The translations under genes were made by a program, and so were the position numbers. From positions 930,001 to 994,000 of the forward strand of contig NZ_CP046046.1 of the NCBI RefSeq assembly GCF_009676705.1: a stretch of 64,000 nt of DNA, read 5' to 3'. The notes under the pieces are model-generated. The model did not search any database and was not told the DNA's origin. It saw nothing but the letters and a program-made list of their open reading frames with translations. The DNA comes from Spiribacter sp. 2438 (GTDB lineage: Bacteria > Pseudomonadota > Gammaproteobacteria > Nitrococcales > Nitrococcaceae). Positions 49,889 through 59,613 of the stretch are shown piece after piece. Every line of letters begins with the position of its first letter. The stretch's first letter is position 1.

Positions 49889-50246
49889 GGGGACGACATG
49901 GCTTCGACGAAGCTCGCGAAACCTCAGGTGCATGCCGAGGACGTCACTTACCTCGTAAATCATGTGGCAAAAAAGATAGTTGCCAACGACGACAACTACG
50001 CACTCGCGGCCTAAACACCCGTGAGCTGTCCACACCTGATCGCCTGTGGTCGGTGTTCGGACAGGCATATTACACAGGCTAGCCCCGCGGAGAGCCCGGA
50101 TCCGCGCGGCGAATCCTTAACGGGATCGCGGTTGCCAGACCCTGGTCGTCGGGTCGGTCGCTGCTAAAACTAAAGACGGCGCTAAGCATGTAGACCCTGT
50201 GGCGGAGGTGCTTCGGACGCGGGTTCGATTCCCGCCGTCTCCACCA
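49889..50246 (+). ncRNA. ssrA: Transfer-messenger RNA (tmRNA), tag ANDDNYALAA
   Basis: The 5' end GGGGACG pairs with CGTCTCC just before the 3' ACCA, forming the tRNA-like acceptor stem. The T-arm GGTTCGATTCC is intact. The GCATGCCGAGG region after the 5' end is typical. The tag reading frame encodes ANDDNYALAA and ends TAA at 50014, close to E. coli ANDENYALAA. Together with SmpB it rescues stalled ribosomes and tags the product for proteolysis. A one-piece tmRNA of about 358 bases. Confidence 0.96.
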
Positions 50247-51826: not shown

Positions 51827-52567
51827 TTATAAGTGGAAGACTTCTTTCCAGTCAGCAAACTCACGGACGTCATCGGTGATGACACCGGTCACGCCCCACG
51901 CCCGGAGATCGGTAACCTCCTCCGCCCGGTTTGGTGTGTAGGCATAGAGCTCATAGCCCGCCTCCAGAACCGCCTGGGCCCTGGCGGCGGTCAGTGATCG
52001 GTACTCAGGGTGGAAGCTGGCCAGGCGAAGTTCGTCAGCAATTGCCTGCCAGTCCGGTGGAATACCCGCGCACAGGTAGCCAAGGTCCCAATCTGTCTGC
52101 TGCTCGCGCACCTGCTCGAGGGCTCGATGCTCAAAGCTGGAAATCAGCAATGACCCGCCATCGTCAGCATGCTTCCGCAATAAGGGCAAGGCGGCCTCTA
52201 CCAGCGCATCGCCCTCCCCGTCGTGGATTTTCAGCTCGAGATTAAGGCTCAGGCCGAGACGATGGATTTCCTGCAAAGCCTCATCCAGCCGCGGGATGGC
52301 GGTGAGTGCCGGGTCGCCGTCCCAGGGCAGGTGCGACCGCCAGTGCCGAACCTCGGCCCACTCCGCCTCACGCACCTTTCGCGACGGCCCGATGGTGCGT
52401 TCAAAGGTGTGATCGTGAAAAAGGATCGGCGTGCCGTCGCCGAGCAGGCAGACATCGGTCTCTATCCACTGCGCTCCCATGGCAGCCGCCCGGCGAAAGG
52501 CCGCCACCGTGTTTTCCGGGGCGTGATATGCACCCCCTCGATGTGCAATGACGCGTCGACTGAACAT
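51827..52567 (-). CDS. Glycerophosphodiester phosphodiesterase (cytoplasmic GlpQ/UgpQ type)
   Basis: A 246-residue GDPD-family TIM barrel with IAHRGGAYHAPENTVAAF, WIETDVCLLGDGTPILFHDHTFERT (Glu, Asp and His of the active site) and LNLELKIHDGEGD. There is no signal peptide, so it acts in the cytoplasm, splitting glycerophosphodiesters to glycerol 3-phosphate. Its first eight codons and its 5' flank form copy 1 of a 43-bp direct repeat; the second copy lies at 58485 beyond the cys cassette. The gene was therefore once next to the betaine-type binding-protein gene. Confidence 0.93.
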   Translation of the reverse strand: MFSRRVIAHRGGAYHAPENTVAAFRRAAAMGAQWIETDVCLLGDGTPILFHDHTFERTIGPSRKVREAEWAEVRHWRSHLPWDGDPALTAIPRLDEALQEIHRLGLSLNLELKIHDGEGDALVEAALPLLRKHADDGGSLLISSFEHRALEQVREQQTDWDLGYLCAGIPPDWQAIADELRLASFHPEYRSLTAARAQAVLEAGYELYAYTPNRAEEVTDLRAWGVTGVITDDVREFADWKEVFHL

Positions 52568-52588
52568 ATAAAGAAACGCCGGGGCGGG
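52546..52588. repeat. 43-bp direct repeat, copy 1
   Basis: Identical over 43 bases to 58485-58527; it begins CAATGACGCGTCGACTGAAC and ends CGCCGGGGCGGG. On the minus strand it comprises the start codon and first codons of the phosphodiesterase gene, its T-rich upstream flank and half of a terminator stem. This copy is intact as a gene start but has lost the other half of the hairpin. Confidence 0.97.
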
Positions 52589-52589
52589 G

Positions 52590-52751
52590 GATTACCGCTA
52601 CGCCGAGGCCGTCCGGGCGGCCGAGCAACGCTTCATTGAGGCGGGCGTCAGTGCCGTGCCCGGTTTTGTGATCGACGGACGCTATCTGATTTCGCGCGCT
52701 CAGCCGGCCAGCAGCCTCGTCGATGCGATCCGACAGATTGCCGAGATCTAA
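52590..52751 (+). pseudogene. 3' fragment of a DsbA-family (FrnE-like) oxidoreductase gene
   Basis: The plus strand encodes 53 residues ending at TAA 52749: DYRYAEAVRAAEQRFIEAG, SAVPGFVIDGRYLISRAQP, and AIRQIAEI. This is the C-terminal end of DsbA-family thioredoxin-fold proteins of the FrnE / 2-hydroxychromene-2-carboxylate isomerase group, including the cis-Pro (VPGFVIDG). The frame runs back into the 43-bp repeat and hits a stop at 52569 with no start, so the N-terminal part and the CxxC site are gone. The break coincides exactly with the end of the repeat. It converges on cysH with a four-base overlap of stop codons. Confidence 0.82.
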
Positions 52752-53437
52752 CGATGCAGCCCGCATTCCCGGAAATACCCACCAAACCGCAGATCTTCGG
52801 AATCGGTGATCTCGCCGACGGCACGGGTCGTATGCCAGTCTCCAATAGAAATGTAACCGGCCTCCCGAAGCGGGTGATATGGCAAGGCATAACGCGTCAG
52901 GTACTGGTGGACGTCATAATCGCTCCAGTCGGCGAGCGGATGCAGCTTTTCAACGCCCCATCGCGATTCCCGGAACGCGATACCCGAACGTGAAGCCGAC
53001 TGCACACGTCGCAGGCCACTGATCCAGACCCCCGCCTGCAATTCATCCAGCGCTCGCTGCATCGGTTCGACCTTGTTCTCATCGTTGTAGCGGCGTAAGG
53101 CGTCCTCGCCCTGCTCCCAGCGTTTACCGTCTATCGTTTCCTGCCAGGCAGCGCTGCGCGCTGCCGAGAAGACGTGCAAATTGAGATCCAACCGCTTGGT
53201 CAGTTGCTCGACGAACCGATAGGTCTCGGCGAAATGGTAGCCCGTGTCAATGAACACAACCGGTATATCGGCCTGAATGGAGGTAGTCATGTGCAGCAGA
53301 ACAGCCGCCTGATTACCGAAGCTGGAACTCAGAACGGCTCGCCCGGGCAGTGTCTCAAGACCCCATCGGACCCGATCGGTGGCGCTCATCTCCGCTAATG
53401 CGGCACCCTGTTGACCCCTATCGATCCTGTTCACCAT
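52748..53437 (-). CDS. cysH: Phosphoadenylyl-sulfate (PAPS) reductase
   Basis: CysH reduces PAPS to sulfite with thioredoxin. The 229-residue protein has the PP-loop-like AVLSSSFGNQAAVLLHM, FIDTGYHFAETYRFVEQL, the LHPLADWSDYDVHQYL segment and the C-terminal ECGLHR with the catalytic cysteine (C225). C225 is the only cysteine in the protein: the paired cysteines that hold the iron-sulfur cluster in APS reductases are absent (WISGLRRVQSASR in that place), so the PAPS-specific type is expected. Its ATG overlaps the cysI TAA as TAATG in reverse order of transcription cysJ-cysI-cysH. Confidence 0.95.
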   Translation of the reverse strand: MVNRIDRGQQGAALAEMSATDRVRWGLETLPGRAVLSSSFGNQAAVLLHMTTSIQADIPVVFIDTGYHFAETYRFVEQLTKRLDLNLHVFSAARSAAWQETIDGKRWEQGEDALRRYNDENKVEPMQRALDELQAGVWISGLRRVQSASRSGIAFRESRWGVEKLHPLADWSDYDVHQYLTRYALPYHPLREAGYISIGDWHTTRAVGEITDSEDLRFGGYFRECGLHR

Positions 53438-55128
53438 TAGTCGCTCCGCAACTCGTTTGTCTCGCTGCCATGAACGGTGGCGGAAATCGTCCCGGAACGA
53501 ATGAGGTAATCGCCGAATGCCTCATCAACTTCACGATTCTGTGCAAAAGCCGCGAATAGCTGATCAATGATTTCAAGGATTGTCGGCTCGTCGATATTCT
53601 CGCGATGAATTCGATTGAGCCTCGAGCCATCGAAGGCCGCACCGAGATACATGTTGTATCGTCCCGGTGCACGGCCAACGAAACCAATTTCTCCGAGATA
53701 GGGCCGTGAGCAGCCGTTCGGGCAACCCGACATGCGGATCGTCATGGGAACATCGCCAATTCCGTGACGAACCGCGATTTCGTCAATGGACGCCAGCAAT
53801 GTCGGGAGATATCGCTCGGACTCCGCCATTGCCAGGCCGCAGGTCGGGAAGGCAACACACGCCATCGAATGACGCTGGCGCACCGAGACCGATTCATCAT
53901 CCAGACCTGCATCACGCAGACGCGTATCGACCGACTCACAGTCAGACGGCCGGATACCGCTGAGAATTAGGTTGTGATTGGGTGTGATGCGAACATCCTC
54001 GCTGTAATCACGGACAATGCGCTCGAGCGCCTCACGTGTCTCACCAGTGAGTCGCCCGCCTTCAACGAAGACCGTTCGGTGATATCGCTCATCAACAGCT
54101 TTATGCCACCCGAATCGATCTCCATTGCCGTTGAACGCGACCGGGATGGGATGATCGAGCGTAACGCCGCTCCGTGTCGCGACTTCCTTTGCAAGCCATT
54201 CGATCCCGCGGTCGTCAACGGTGTATTTAAAGCGAGCATGGCGGCGATTCTCGCGATCCCCGTAATCGCGCTGAATGGTGACAATCGCCTCGCAGACAGC
54301 GACTACATCCTCGGTCCGGACAAATCCGAGCGATTCTGCGAGCCGCGGAAATGTGCTTGAATCACCCTGACTGCAGCCCAGGCCGCCACCCGCCAGCACG
54401 TTAAACCCGATAAGGCAATCATTACGCTCGATCGCGATCAGGCCGATATCCTGACTGTAGACATCAACGTCATTAACCGGCGGCAGAGCAATCCCTATCT
54501 TGAATTTCCTTGGAAGATACGTCCGGCCGTAAAGCGGGTCCGGAGTCGGCTCAATCTCCCTGGTATCGACTTTATCGCCGTCAACCCAAATCTCCCGCCA
54601 TGCATCCGTCCGTGGCGTCAGATGCGCGCTGATTTCCCGCGCGATGCGCGACGTCTCGGCGTGGAGAGGGCCCGCCTCAGGCTGGACATGACACATGACA
54701 TTCCGATTGACATCCCCGCATCCGGCCAGCGAGTCCATGAGAACCGCGTCAAGCCGCCCCATCAGGTCCGGCAGATTCTCTTTCGCAACCCCGTGGAATT
54801 GCACGGCTTGGCGGGTTGTTAAACGCAGACTGCCACCGCCAAGCTGACGGGCCGTCTCATTCAGGGCCGACCACTGTTGAGGCGTTGCCACACCACCGGG
54901 CACACGCACTCTGATCATGAACCGATAATCAGGTTCAAGCCTCGCCTCGCGGCGCTCACGGCGGCTCTCCCGGTTGTCCTGCTGGTAGATGCCGTGGAAT
55001 TTTGTAATCGCCGTGTCCTCTGGATGGACAGCGCCCGTGGTCTCGTCATCCAGGCTTGAGACCAGCGTTCCACGCAGATTTCGGCTTCGCGCCTTGATTT
55101 TTTCGACGTCGAGGTTTTCAGCCATCAA
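53437..55128 (-). CDS. cysI: Sulfite reductase (NADPH) hemoprotein beta subunit
   Basis: CysI, 563 residues, carries siroheme and a 4Fe-4S cluster and reduces sulfite to sulfide. The four cluster cysteines are in ACVAFPTCGLAMAESERYLP and SGCPNGCSRPYLGEIGFVG. N-terminal landmarks are FHGIYQQDNRESRRERREA and IRVRVPGGVATPQQW. It overlaps cysJ by four bases and cysH by one. Siroheme for it is made by CysG, encoded in the same cassette. Confidence 0.97.
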   Translation of the reverse strand: MMAENLDVEKIKARSRNLRGTLVSSLDDETTGAVHPEDTAITKFHGIYQQDNRESRRERREARLEPDYRFMIRVRVPGGVATPQQWSALNETARQLGGGSLRLTTRQAVQFHGVAKENLPDLMGRLDAVLMDSLAGCGDVNRNVMCHVQPEAGPLHAETSRIAREISAHLTPRTDAWREIWVDGDKVDTREIEPTPDPLYGRTYLPRKFKIGIALPPVNDVDVYSQDIGLIAIERNDCLIGFNVLAGGGLGCSQGDSSTFPRLAESLGFVRTEDVVAVCEAIVTIQRDYGDRENRRHARFKYTVDDRGIEWLAKEVATRSGVTLDHPIPVAFNGNGDRFGWHKAVDERYHRTVFVEGGRLTGETREALERIVRDYSEDVRITPNHNLILSGIRPSDCESVDTRLRDAGLDDESVSVRQRHSMACVAFPTCGLAMAESERYLPTLLASIDEIAVRHGIGDVPMTIRMSGCPNGCSRPYLGEIGFVGRAPGRYNMYLGAAFDGSRLNRIHRENIDEPTILEIIDQLFAAFAQNREVDEAFGDYLIRSGTISATVHGSETNELRSD

Positions 55129-56915
55129 TATACATCCTTCTGGTAGCGACCCTCACGCTTGAGCAGGTCGATTGCCTGTTGTGCTTGCTCATCAGTCAAT
55201 CGACGCTCTGTGGCGATAATCGTTTTCAGCGCGTCTTCAACGGCCTGTGCCATCCCCCGGCCGTTACCGCAGACGTAGAAGTGCGCACCGCGCTCGAGCC
55301 ATTCATTCACGTCGGTGCCCTCCTCAAGAATCCGATGCTGTACATACGTTCGCTCTGCCCCATCCCGGGAAAAGGCGACGGATAGCCGGTTGAGCCAACC
55401 GGTTTCATGCCAGTATTGCCAATCGAGCTGATAGAGGAAGTCTGTCCGGCGGTGCTGTTCACCAAAGAACAACCAGTTGTCTCCCGTTGCACCGGTTGCC
55501 TCACGGTGCTGCATAAAGGCCCGAAACGGCGCGACGCCGGTGCCAGGACCGACCATGATAATGGGGGTGGCACCCGAATCCGGCGGTTTGAAACGCGGAT
55601 TCGGTTCGACGTAAACCGGGGCCGTATCACCGACCTGGAGACGCTCGAGTAGATAACCCGAAGCCGCACCGGTCCGGATACGATCGTCGTGATCGCCGGT
55701 TTCGAGCCGGACTGTCAGATGCACCTCATCCTCGGCCACTTCGGGGCTTGAGGCGATTGAATAAAGCCGAGGCGCGCACTTGCGCAGGGCGCCCACCAGC
55801 TGATCAGCCGTCACCTCGCCGGGATAGGCGCGGATAACGTCAACCGTCTGACGCGTGGTCAGCCAGCCGCGCAAACGCTCCCGGTCGTCGACAATTGCGT
55901 TCAGTGCGTCATGACCGGTCAGAGCTGCCCATTCTTTCAGAAATGGCACAACGACCTGCGTGAGTTCCAGGCGCTCGGTCGCGGCCGCCCGCAACGTCAG
56001 CCTCGAGTCATCGAAGACCACCTCCTCGTCACCAGACAGCCCGGTCAGTTGCAACAGCTCGTCCACCAGAGCATCGTCGTTGCGCGGCTGGATACCCAGT
56101 GAATCCCCAGGCGCATACTCGATACCGCTATCCTCCAGCGAGAGCACCACGTGGCCCACGCGCTTGCCGGACGGCGGAACCGTCAGTGGCGCGCGTTCGA
56201 GCACCTCCGCGTGGTATGGATTCCGACGATCATGCTGTAACGGTGTTGACGCTACCGACGGTACTGACGTCACCGAATGGGACTGCGAAGCAGACTCGAG
56301 CCGTTCAAACAGCGCAGTGGCCCACTGTGCTTCCTCCGCATCGAACTCAACGTCACAGTCGATGCGCTGGATCAGTGGCTTCGCGCCCAGCGCCTGCAGA
56401 CGCTCATCGACATTCTTGCCCGCCTCGCAGAAATCGGGATAGGAGGAATCACCAAGCGCGAGCACGCTGTACTCGAGATCATCGAGCCTTGGCGCGTTGT
56501 CGCCATGCAAGAACTGGTGAAATGCCTCTGCGGTCTCCGGCGGTTCGCCATCACCATGGGTGCTCATGACCAGCGCGAGCAGTTCTTTTTTACGGATCTG
56601 GCGCGGGTTGACCTGTGCCAGGTCGGACATCTCCACATCGATGCCACGCGCTTGCGCCTGTTGTTTGAGCCGTTCAGCGACACCCCGCGCATTCCCCGTC
56701 TCAGTGCCGTACCAGATCGTCAGGGTTTGCGCCGGTAGCGCTGTTGGCGCGATTGCCGCGGATCCATCCACCGGCTGCGCCGACGCTCCCTGCTCGGCCG
56801 CCGCTAGTCCGGCCGTATACCCCGACACCCAGAGCAGTTCATCCCGATCGGCGGTTGATACCAGTGCGCGGAGGCGCTCTTCCAATGCGGTATTCAGATG
56901 ACCTGAACTTGGCAT
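55125..56915 (-). CDS. cysJ: Sulfite reductase (NADPH) flavoprotein alpha subunit
   Basis: CysJ, 596 residues, passes electrons from NADPH through FAD and FMN to CysI. An N-terminal flavodoxin domain (IWYGTETGNARGVAERLKQ, ALGDSSYPDFCEAGK) is joined by a variable Ser/Val linker at about residues 205-225 to an FAD/NADPH reductase domain (PRLYSIASSP, VHLTVRLETG, MVGPGTGVAPFRAFMQHRE) and ends in the invariant REGRYQKDVY. First gene of the cysJ-cysI-cysH operon, divergent from cysG. Confidence 0.97.
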   Translation of the reverse strand: MPSSGHLNTALEERLRALVSTADRDELLWVSGYTAGLAAAEQGASAQPVDGSAAIAPTALPAQTLTIWYGTETGNARGVAERLKQQAQARGIDVEMSDLAQVNPRQIRKKELLALVMSTHGDGEPPETAEAFHQFLHGDNAPRLDDLEYSVLALGDSSYPDFCEAGKNVDERLQALGAKPLIQRIDCDVEFDAEEAQWATALFERLESASQSHSVTSVPSVASTPLQHDRRNPYHAEVLERAPLTVPPSGKRVGHVVLSLEDSGIEYAPGDSLGIQPRNDDALVDELLQLTGLSGDEEVVFDDSRLTLRAAATERLELTQVVVPFLKEWAALTGHDALNAIVDDRERLRGWLTTRQTVDVIRAYPGEVTADQLVGALRKCAPRLYSIASSPEVAEDEVHLTVRLETGDHDDRIRTGAASGYLLERLQVGDTAPVYVEPNPRFKPPDSGATPIIMVGPGTGVAPFRAFMQHREATGATGDNWLFFGEQHRRTDFLYQLDWQYWHETGWLNRLSVAFSRDGAERTYVQHRILEEGTDVNEWLERGAHFYVCGNGRGMAQAVEDALKTIIATERRLTDEQAQQAIDLLKREGRYQKDVY

Positions 56916-57047
56916 ACATCGACTCGTCTATGATTGATTTTTTCCAAGTCTAGGCATGACTGCCGCAATCCAAAAAAGAATTTTCGGGAATATTCATATA
57001 AAGCAATGTTGTTTTTCATACGTTTGCAAACTCGCTACTTTCAGTTC
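56916..57047. promoter_or_regulatory. Divergent cysJ / cysG control region
   Basis: A 132-base gap, clearly A+T-rich compared with the rest of the window (runs such as GATTTTTTCC, CCAAAAAAGAATTTT, ATTCATATAAAG). It must hold promoters for both units. Candidate -10-like elements are present but no pair with convincing -35 spacing could be chosen, and no CysB-type site could be assigned by eye. Confidence 0.45.
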
Positions 57048-58442
57048 ATGAGCGTTTCGAAAAACAATACCGGATCCCCTTTCTACCCAATCTTTCTGCG
57101 ATTAAGACGGCGTCAGGTGTTGGTGATTGGAGGGAATATCGAGGCAGAGCGCAAGGTCCGTCGCCTGAATAGGGCCGGTGCCCGGATCACCGTGATCGCC
57201 GATGCGCTCACCGAGGGTCTCGAGGCGTTCGCGGTGGATGAGTCAATCGACTGGATTTCACCGCCGGTTGAGCCGGCGCATCTCGGCAACAAGCACTTGA
57301 TCGTTATCGCGGATGCGGCGCCGGCGACGCTGGACTGGGTTCGTGATCAAGCCGAGCGAGACGGCATACCGTTCAACGCCGTCGATCAGCTCGAGCAGTG
57401 CAGCGCGATTGTACCGTCTGTTGTGGATCGGTCGCCGCTGATGGTTGCTGTCAGCTCCGCCGGGACCGCTCCAGAGCTGGCTAGGATGACACGCAGTCGG
57501 ATCGAGCGAATGCTGCGTCCGGGATCCGGGCGCCTCGCCACTCTGCTAAGTGAGCTACGCGTGCCAATTCGCACACGCTACCCGGATATCCCGAGGCGCC
57601 GCCAATTCCTCAATTGGGCAATGACAGGCCCTCCCGCTGACGCTGCGGATCAGGGCGATAGCGAAGCGGCCGAGAATTATATCCGAGAATCTCTGGCAGA
57701 TGAGCGCCAGACGCCAACCGGTGAGGTCATGCTTGTCGGCGCCGGCCCCGGCGACCCGGAATTGCTGACACTCCGCGCGTTGCGTGCAATACAGAGCGCT
57801 GATGTCATCGCGTATGACGGTCTCATCGATTCGTCGATACTCGATTACGCGCGACGTGATGCGAAGTTACTCAGCGTCGCCAAGCGAGCGGGCGACAAGG
57901 GCATTCATCAGACGGAGATCTGCGAACTGCTTGTCGAGCATGCAAGCGATGGTGCGCGCGTTGTTCGCCTTAAAGGAGGCGATCCGCTGATCTTCGGCCG
58001 CGCCGGCGAGGAGATCGATGCGCTCCGAGCCGCTGATGTACACTTTTCCATCATTCCCGGTGTAACGGCAGCGTCGGGGGCGGCTGCAGCCCTTAAAATG
58101 CCCCTGACACAGCGGGATCGATCGCAGTCTGTCCGCTTGGTCACCGCGCACTGCGCCAGAGGGATCGATTGCATTGATTGGGCAGCGCTCGCGACCGAGA
58201 AACAGACGCTAGCGTTTTATATGGGGATTGCCACCCTCGACCAGGTCGAGTGCAATCTCATCGCACATGGCCGTTCACCTGAGACACCGGTCGCAATCGT
58301 CGAGAACGCCAGTCAACCGACGCAGCGGCGGATCACTGGGCAGCTGGGGACGCTCTCAGTCCTCGCGCGTGAGCATCAACTGGTCTCGCCCGCTATAACG
58401 TTTATTGGTGAGGTGGCGGCTTCTGTCACTGTGCCGGCGTAA
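57048..58442 (+). CDS. cysG: Siroheme synthase CysG (dehydrogenase/ferrochelatase + uroporphyrinogen-III C-methyltransferase)
   Basis: A 464-residue two-domain enzyme that turns uroporphyrinogen III into siroheme. The N-terminal CysG-B domain has VLVIGGNIEAERKVRRL (usual GGG changed to GGN), the catalytic Asp in NAVD (E. coli D104) and VAVSSAGTAP (E. coli S128). The usual TDD stretch is replaced by DAAP. The C-terminal CysG-A domain has VMLVGAGPGDPELLTLRAL, YDGLIDSSIL, VAKRAGDKG, VVRLKGGDPLIFGRAGEE and the methionine of FYMGI. ATG 57048 (MSVSKNNTGSPFYP) gives the normal length; a start at 56934 would add 38 unrelated residues. Confidence 0.95.
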   Translation: MSVSKNNTGSPFYPIFLRLRRRQVLVIGGNIEAERKVRRLNRAGARITVIADALTEGLEAFAVDESIDWISPPVEPAHLGNKHLIVIADAAPATLDWVRDQAERDGIPFNAVDQLEQCSAIVPSVVDRSPLMVAVSSAGTAPELARMTRSRIERMLRPGSGRLATLLSELRVPIRTRYPDIPRRRQFLNWAMTGPPADAADQGDSEAAENYIRESLADERQTPTGEVMLVGAGPGDPELLTLRALRAIQSADVIAYDGLIDSSILDYARRDAKLLSVAKRAGDKGIHQTEICELLVEHASDGARVVRLKGGDPLIFGRAGEEIDALRAADVHFSIIPGVTAASGAAAALKMPLTQRDRSQSVRLVTAHCARGIDCIDWAALATEKQTLAFYMGIATLDQVECNLIAHGRSPETPVAIVENASQPTQRRITGQLGTLSVLAREHQLVSPAITFIGEVAASVTVPA

Positions 58443-58450
58443 GACGGTAT

Positions 58451-58484
58451 GGTAATCCCCCCATTTATAAACGGGGGGATTACC
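58451..58484 (+). terminator. 12-bp perfect hairpin after cysG, at the cassette edge
   Basis: GGTAATCCCCCC (58451-58462) and GGGGGGATTACC (58473-58484) form a perfect 12-bp stem around ATTTATAAAC. No T-run follows. It lies eight bases after the cysG stop and directly abuts repeat copy 2. A further copy of one arm, GGGGGATTACC, is found at 52586-52596 at the other cassette edge. Confidence 0.7.
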
Positions 58485-58527
58485 CAATGACGCGTCGACT
58501 GAACATATAAAGAAACGCCGGGGCGGG
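58485..58527. repeat. 43-bp direct repeat, copy 2
   Basis: Identical to 52546-52588. Here it is a stranded duplicate: on the minus strand it contains an ATG and seven codons of the phosphodiesterase reading frame (MFSRRVI) that then run into the cassette, and it completes the terminator of the binding-protein gene. Confidence 0.97.
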
Positions 58528-58540
58528 CCCCGGCGTCGTT
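58509..58540 (-). terminator. Rho-independent terminator of the binding-protein gene
   Basis: On the minus strand GACGCCGGGGC, a short CC(G) loop and GCCCCGGCGTTTCTTT form a strong stem followed by a T-rich tail, 20-odd bases after the stop codon at 58562. Part of it lies in repeat copy 2. Confidence 0.85.
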
Positions 58541-58561: not shown

Positions 58562-59524
58562 TTAGAGCATGTCCTGCAGGTTTGCGCGTGCGTCCTCACT
58601 CAACCAGGACATCCACATGTCCGGTCGATTCTGCAGAAAATGCACCACCGCTTCATCCACCGTGGCGTTGTTGTCCGAGTGCCATGCCAGCAGCTCATTC
58701 ATTTCGCTGTTGTCGAAGCTGAGCCGCTGCATCAGCTCGAACACCGCCGGCTCGCGTTCGGCCAGGTCCGTGGTGACCACGTTGTAGACTGGTGAGGAGG
58801 GCCAGGCCGTCTTGCCAATGTCGTCGCAATCTACATCCAGATTGCACTCATAGGTTTCCTGGTCAACGGGACCCATATCCACGCTGACGAGATCGTACTT
58901 GCCAAGCGGCGCCGTCGGCCCCCAGTAGTAGCCAAAGTACGGCTCGCCGCTCTCGTACGCGGAGACCAGTGCAGCCATCAACGTCTCACCGGAGCCGTGA
59001 TGAAAAACTTCAATGCCATGGCTCTCGAAGTCATAGGCTTCGACTAGTGCGTCATTGGCATTTCGGCACCCCCAGCCATCAGGACAGCTGTGGAAGCGCC
59101 CGCCCACGAGTTCCGGGTTCTCAAGAATCCCCTCTATCGTGGCGAGTTCCGGATGCTCCTCCACCAGATAGGAGGGAACCAGCCAATGCTCGGTACCACC
59201 GGCACTGAACGCATCCGAGGCCTTGACTACCCGCCCCTCTTCCTCGAGACGGAAATACGCCGGCGCTCCGTTCGGCCAGAGCTCCGGTATGACATCCGGT
59301 TCGTTGTTCTCCGCCAGGGAGGTCACCGCTGTGGTGGTGGCGGAGGGGACCACCACCACATCGCAGCCATACCCTTGCTCCATGAGAAACGCCGCTACAC
59401 CAGTGATGATCCGGCCGGACGTCCAGTTCATTTCGGCGACGGAGACGGTACCGCAATCGGCTTTCGCACTGAGAGGCGCCATCAGCCCCGCCAGTGCCAC
59501 GGCCAGTACACAACGTTTACGCAT
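58562..59524 (-). CDS. Glycine betaine/choline-type ABC transporter substrate-binding protein (ProX/OpuAC family)
   Basis: A 320-residue periplasmic protein with a signal peptide (MRKRCVLAVALAGLMAPLSAKA) and the OpuAC fold: VAEMNWTSGRIITGVAAFLM, NEPDVIPELWPNGAPAYF, and aromatic residues such as GYYWGPTAPLGKYDL expected to cage a quaternary ammonium group. Highly acidic. ATG 59524 has GGAG upstream; a start at 59575 would disrupt the signal peptide. No permease or ATPase gene of its type lies in the window, so the gene is an orphan here and its partner transporter is unknown. A compatible solute as ligand is inference. Confidence 0.87.
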   Translation of the reverse strand: MRKRCVLAVALAGLMAPLSAKADCGTVSVAEMNWTSGRIITGVAAFLMEQGYGCDVVVVPSATTTAVTSLAENNEPDVIPELWPNGAPAYFRLEEEGRVVKASDAFSAGGTEHWLVPSYLVEEHPELATIEGILENPELVGGRFHSCPDGWGCRNANDALVEAYDFESHGIEVFHHGSGETLMAALVSAYESGEPYFGYYWGPTAPLGKYDLVSVDMGPVDQETYECNLDVDCDDIGKTAWPSSPVYNVVTTDLAEREPAVFELMQRLSFDNSEMNELLAWHSDNNATVDEAVVHFLQNRPDMWMSWLSEDARANLQDML

Positions 59525-59613
59525 AAAATGCTCCACTTTTGCTTTGGCATATCGCCACATTTGATAGTAGATCAATTTTCTTGATGATTCGAACCCGCCC
59601 CATCCACCGCGCC

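Follow-up and report, generated by a model that had tools for sequence, protein, structure and literature searches.

Spiribacter sp. 2438 carries a block of genes for the reduction of phosphoadenylyl sulfate (PAPS) and sulfite between two direct repeats of 43 bp. The block lies in a stretch of 64,000 nucleotides (positions 930001-994000 in a genome that consists of one contig of 1,900,931 bases) which is referred to here as the window and to which coordinates refer unless they are given for the genome. A first-pass annotation of this DNA had placed cysH, cysI, cysJ, cysG and a gene remnant between the repeats and had seen in the arrangement either an unrecognised mode of insertion or a decayed element. 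Along the forward strand, the locus consists of the following features:

51827-52567, minus strand: gene for a glycerophosphodiester phosphodiesterase (GDPD), the target gene; Pfam PF03009, frame intact with 246 codons
52546-52588, no strand assigned: left copy of the 43-bp repeat, comprising GDPD codons 1-7, the 5' leader, and the loop and one arm of a terminator
52586-52596, minus strand: 11-bp remnant of an insertion sequence (IS) terminus at the left edge, GGGGGATTACC, of which 52589-52596 lie outside the repeat
52597-52751, plus strand: 3' fragment of a DsbA-like gene, presumably frnE, with its stop codon at 52749-52751 and its 5' side cut by the IS terminus
52748-53437, minus strand: cysH, PAPS reductase; NCBIfam PRK02090, 256.6 bits at a cut-off of 154
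53437-55128, minus strand: cysI, hemoprotein of the assimilatory NADPH-sulfite reductase; PRK13504, 731.3 bits at a cut-off of 457
55125-56915, minus strand: cysJ, flavoprotein of the NADPH-sulfite reductase; TIGR01931, 660.8 bits, slightly below the cut-off of 668.15
57048-58442, plus strand: cysG, siroheme synthase; PRK10637, 530.2 bits at a cut-off of 400
58451-58484, minus strand: collapsed 34-bp IS3-family element with both termini and no body, recognised by blastn and by a modelled deletion
58485-58527, no strand assigned: right copy of the 43-bp repeat, reaching from the IS terminus to the last base of the terminator loop
58514-58537, minus strand: terminator hairpin of the ProX-like gene, loop at 58524-58527, complete at the right copy alone
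58562-59530, minus strand: gene for a ProX-like glycine betaine/choline binding protein, the right flank; Pfam OpuAC

The cassette genes were named by an NCBIfam profile scan of the four full genes, with the small overlapping open reading frames (ORFs) standing outside the scan. A curated cut-off of at least one fitting model is passed by cysH, cysI and cysG; with a further model, TIGR02041, cysI scores 699.8 bits, below the cut-off of 756.55. These families bear out the gene content reported earlier, the remnant being the 3' part of frnE. The genes cysH, cysI and cysJ all lie on the minus strand, and cysG is transcribed divergently from cysJ. From the gene families and the textbook pathway, the cassette would be predicted to convert PAPS to sulfite and sulfide and to supply its own siroheme. 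CysD is one route to activated sulfate. Comparisons were made with a genus set of 14 genomes (nine of them at least 90% complete), a family set of 23 and an order set of 54, with the present genome (G000) counted in each. The CysD model exceeded its curated cut-off in none of the 14 genus genomes, with matches in 10 of 14 control genomes, four of them over the cut-off; the sole weaker CysD match in this genome falls within cysH itself. The G+C content of the cassette is 59.2% vs 63.8% for window bases 1-50000.

The two repeat copies are identical over all 43 bp and in direct orientation, in the very places the first-pass annotation had given, and a whole-genome blast search (E <= 0.001) returned these two sites and no third. 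A chance repeat is ruled out by the exact match of 43 bp at two genomic sites. The count of two copies likewise rules out a repeat family dispersed over many sites, a finding that had been named beforehand as one that would speak against an insertion. Among viral contigs, no exact match was found to 28 bases of the repeat. Read on the minus strand, the repeat comprises the terminator loop with one arm, then the leader and then codons 1-7 of the GDPD ORF; that it combines half a terminator with the start of the phosphodiesterase gene, as had been reported, agrees with both the hairpin fold and the codons. The hairpin at 58514-58537 folds with a z-score of -3.69, was equalled in 1 of 200 shuffles and is followed by a T-rich run. 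The left copy lacks the second hairpin arm, and folding there is no better than in shuffled sequence (z -0.01). Because the repeat consists of part of the terminator, the leader and the GDPD start, and because the body of GDPD lies at the left copy, the order before the insertion would have been ProX-like gene, terminator and phosphodiesterase, a reconstruction that follows from the sequence and upholds the earlier one. DNA similar to proX is present in 13 of the 14 genus genomes, and a GDPD relative (E <= 1e-20) in this genome only. No GDPD was found at 20 loci adjoining ProX-like matches (L008-L027, up to about 1.5 kb per side).

At both edges of the cassette, termini of an insertion sequence stand immediately inside or at the repeats. 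On the left, the eight bases GGATTACC separate the repeat from the frnE fragment and are exactly the terminal eight of the IS, and the frnE similarity begins at most one base from them. On the right, a hairpin of the form GGTAATCCCCCC-ATTTATAAAC-GGGGGGATTACC lies directly inside the repeat copy, whose first base is also the first base outside the IS terminus (CAAT); CAAT starts the left copy too. All 11 terminal bases match in the left remnant as well as at either end of the right one. The latter was also recovered independently by blastn with the IS (58451-58480, 30 bases, 93%, E 2.3e-5), and an IS right end modelled as joined to a left end at a shared 5-bp CGGGG agrees with the observed 34-mer at 33 of 34 positions. 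IS termini are thus present on both sides of the cassette, in 11 and 34 bp, with the right outer end precise and the left outer end gone. The edge remnants are IS-derived and are not themselves an IS; the 34-bp remnant is too small to hold a transposase.

The link to a particular element was uncovered by a genome-wide search with the edge motif. Seven exact copies of GGTAATCCCCC were found in the genome and none of the reversed control. Three of the seven are the cassette edges, two face each other as the ends of a 1,111-bp element, and the sixth heads a 263-bp match to that element; the seventh is solitary, surrounded by other sequence, and could be a chance match. When one mismatch was allowed, in the window only, five matches were found against 1.41 expected, a number reached in 2 of 100 shuffles. 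Judged by these matches, the cassette edges are termini of an ISXac2-like insertion sequence of the IS3 family, and the block as a whole is well supported by its sequence as an insertion. No integrase or transposase family was found among the four full genes between the repeats (the small overlapping ORFs being unscanned), in agreement with the first-pass annotation, which had overlooked, however, the IS termini inside both copies. Of its two suggestions, a decayed element fits the 11-bp and 34-bp remnants at the edges.

The 1,111-bp copy, with both ends, lies at genome positions 1815408-1816518 and is of IS3 type; its OrfA contains HTH_Tnp_1 and its OrfB the rve integrase core. It shares with ISXac2-like IS3 elements the termini GGTAATCCCCC...GGGGGATTACC and these two domains, whereas the cassette retains the termini alone. 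The IS was matched by 1,245 plasmid records, 383 of them at a coverage of at least 80%. Among the matches listed, 25 plasmid copies are 72.6-79.9% identical to the 1,111-bp copy over 99% of its length, and the annotations of the plasmid relatives give the IS3 family and, in several cases, the ISXac2 family. Three full-length relatives of 1,194-1,200 bp were fetched, against which the 1,111-bp copy shows a 90-column gap (about 90 bp) in its transposase gene. These relatives, from Halomonas sp. KG2, Marinobacter nauticus VT8 and Massilia forsythiae, have the same termini as the IS and are flanked by target duplications of CTAC, CATC and CCTT. With 4 bp in all three, a duplication of 43 bp falls outside what an ISXac2-like IS usually makes. 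At the cassette, CAAT is common to both edges but lies within the 43-bp repeat. An unrecognised mode of insertion, the other suggestion of the first-pass annotation, is not supported, given edges that are termini of an IS3-family element present elsewhere in the genome and given the 4-bp duplications of the relatives. In one further genus member, G005, twelve matches to the IS are spread over several contigs, one copy having 617 bp between its matching parts; the ISXac2-like IS has spread within the genus.

The frnE fragment carries information on where the cassette genes stood earlier. A full-length protein of the fragment's gene, encoded in G004, is DsbA-like (PF01323). Queried with the 54-residue fragment, frnE was found in six of the 14 genus genomes including this one; the five other proteins are 76-90% identical to the fragment, that of G001 over 39 residues only. 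DNA alignments of the fragment give 90% identity with G004 across 152 bases and 92% with G001 across the first 115 bases of the fragment. A DNA search with the G004 locus gave no match to the 5' part of frnE in this genome, and since only the 3' part is present here, no source scar of frnE is seen. In G002, 17 of the 19 bases after the frnE stop match the cysH 3' end by eye, within an alignment of 74 out of 85 bp that runs across the stop. When the 12 bases beginning with the stop are compared, 11 agree in G002 and 1 to 5 in the five others. Because a scrap of cysH still stands behind frnE in G002, frnE and cysH probably form an old neighbourhood of the genus that has since moved. From these alignments, the two genes were most likely convergent neighbours in the common ancestor or the shared gene pool of these species, and G002 most likely retained the cysH scrap alone while the present genome holds the block elsewhere. 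A sulfur-assimilation locus can thus be traced in a small-genome genus, as a cysH scrap in one species and relocated in another. The G002 locus (L074), in which frnE is adjoined by some 20 bp from the 3' end of cysH in a genome without cysI, has the appearance of a trace of a lost sulfur locus. The frnE gene of G001 (L077) differs from the rest towards its 3' end, where it may be truncated as well.

A close match to CysI is confined to this genome within the genus, none being found in the other 13 genomes searched. Matches were obtained in nine of the 23 genomes of the family set (E <= 1e-50) and in 12 of the 54 of the order set (E <= 1e-100), this genome included. The best full-length match is 54% identical and one partial match 55%; within the order the best reaches 53%. 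On plasmids, 98 records match CysI (E <= 1e-5), all at less than 60% identity, the first listed at 48.9%. The phylogeny of CysHIJG that had been proposed as a check was run for CysI but resolved no donor: in a tree of 24 rows, from which L041 and L042 were excluded, CysI forms a long branch. Its grouping with one set of order members was rejected (p-AU 0.006) and its grouping with another was not (p-AU 0.062), values that serve as a guide only, because the groups were defined after the tree was viewed. G001, G004 and G012 were considered as holders of an orthologous sulfite reductase and ruled out, with matches of 25-28%. The genes were named in G004, where the match belongs to a cluster with a NirA-type reductase. 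The G004 cluster (L058, 12306-19510) encodes a siroheme synthase, a uroporphyrinogen-III synthase, the NirA-type reductase and a PRK06214 flavoprotein, followed by a formate/nitrite family transporter; it looks like a nitrite assimilation cluster, which is easily confused with sulfite reductase genes.

Taken together, the insertion is most likely the work of an ordinary insertion sequence of which little now remains. The 39 bp by which the repeat exceeds a normal duplication are the unusual part, and the event is otherwise ordinary in kind. It is considered rather probable that an IS-bracketed move was combined with a secondary origin of these 39 bases, of which aborted excision would be one form among others. 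According to this model, a segment of an earlier frnE-cysHIJ-cysG neighbourhood in the same genus would have been bracketed by ISXac2-like copies, one inside frnE and one 8 bp past the cysG stop, and would have been carried as a composite transposon or IS-linked circle into the boundary of GDPD codons 7 and 8, downstream of the proX-like gene. Landing would have produced the ordinary 4-bp duplication CAAT and cut GDPD. During an excision that was aborted, copying may then have slipped from CAAT on the left to CAAT on the right and run through 39 bases of the right flank as far as the loop of the terminator hairpin; by returning at a 3-bp GGG match into the inner end of the left IS, it would have replaced the body of that IS. 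The outcome would be a repeat of 4 + 39 = 43 bp and a restored GDPD start, while the right IS would have collapsed separately to 34 bp. The 39 extra bases run to the final base of the terminator loop; slippage during aborted excision would account for both of their limits, because they start at the 4-bp repeat and stop at a hairpin.

The same IS-bracketed cassette is the starting point of an alternative that differs in the second step alone and is put forward tentatively. Repair from an intact GDPD allele, on incoming DNA or a sister chromosome, could have replaced the left IS, with a homologous exchange within GDPD on one side and, on the other, a GGG joint of 3 bp in the inner end of that IS, so that the GDPD start would be restored and 43 bp left duplicated. 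This route requires one short-homology joint only, it explains the restored GDPD as well as aborted excision does, and the open frame of 246 codons with a good family match is what selection for a working gene would leave; however, it requires a second allele, none of which was observed, and leaves the exact stop at the end of the terminator loop unexplained. Both steps would merge in a one-ended transposition or capture in a broken target, in which the transposase joins the right terminus at CAAT, the other end is copied from a 3' end at the loop, and the 43 bp are a one-step duplication from staggered breaks. Such an event would yield in one step a right junction exactly at the IS terminus and a left junction that is not, and one report describes an IS that sits in the middle of a large duplication and lacks any target duplication, whatever its size (PMC11708052). 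It is nevertheless judged unlikely, as it needs breaks 43 bases apart and as no such case appeared among the papers listed, judged by titles and abstract openings. That an IS3-family element moves a multi-gene segment one-endedly, its transposase joining one terminus while short-homology copying from a target break completes the other, is equally a doubtful proposition; if true, a one-ended IS3 reaction would yield duplications of tens of bases resembling the work of an unknown integrase. Aborted excision, allele repair and one-ended joining are thus all offered for the 39 bases, and the data do not decide between them.

Two further explanations dispense with the ISXac2-like IS as the source of the repeat. 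A site-specific or other element that makes long target duplications, be it an unrecognised integrase or a long-duplication IS family, would suit a perfect repeat of 43 bp, but it is very improbable given that the edges belong to an IS3-family element whose relatives make 4-bp duplications, that the four full genes match cys families and none matches an integrase or transposase (small overlapping ORFs unscanned), and that the 43 bp have no further genomic copy. That the repeat is unrelated to the insertion, through chance or an older tandem duplication, is scarcely credible, since both copies abut IS terminus bases and an exact match of 43 bp at precisely the two edges is not expected by chance.

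Several observations weigh against the preferred account of an IS-bracketed move followed by a secondary step. Neither a genome with the empty site nor an intermediate was found, as a search for GDPD (E <= 1e-20) gave no match in any of the other 13 genomes of the genus. As the left remnant measures 11 bp, it could stem from either end of the IS, and the complete left IS and its orientation are what we infer. The right 34-mer is close to a palindrome, and two right ends joined together would, as judged by eye, differ from it by one base as well. The 1,111-bp copy elsewhere in the genome has no 4-bp duplication (GCCC/GTAT), and the flanks of an IS copy in G005 agree at three of four bases (TGTC/TCTC). 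Of the five other genus members with frnE, one has the cysH scrap beside it, and this scrap is weak as a protein match (nine of 14 residues, E 0.13). CysI lacks a close relative, its matches lying at 45-55% identity. Finally, the 39-bp step would depend on a coincidence of boundaries.

Parts of this history have counterparts in known systems. For the mcr-1 composite transposon Tn6330 (ISApl1-mcr-1-ISApl1), the loss of IS copies has been described: as proposed here, the passenger is bracketed by one type of IS whose copies are lost later (PMC5821093). The present passenger is a sulfur pathway, however, and its repeats measure 43 bp vs the 2-bp duplications reported for ISApl1 (PMC5821093). A Dup-IS-Dup structure arose in a laboratory population of Pseudomonas fluorescens SBW25 (PMC11708052). 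There too, an IS lies between target copies that far exceed its normal duplication, but the duplication spans 59,943 bp around a single full IS481 element, whereas the cassette combines 43 bp with a passenger and decayed IS ends (PMC11708052). The locus illustrates that a metabolic block can look free of any recombinase when little is left of its IS copies, here 11 and 34 bp. In genome scans, long target repeats therefore merit checking for IS termini immediately inside them.

A transfer-messenger RNA (tmRNA) gene with the tag ANDDNYALAA lies to the left of the region, at window positions 49889-50246. It ends 2.3 kb ahead of the repeat, and the repeat is no part of it. An integrase-borne or tmRNA-targeted island is unsupported, with no integrase family in the four scanned genes and the repeat outside the tmRNA. 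In the corresponding stretches of five relatives, the genes to the right of the tmRNA are mostly non-collinear, and this part of the chromosome is possibly a variable region.

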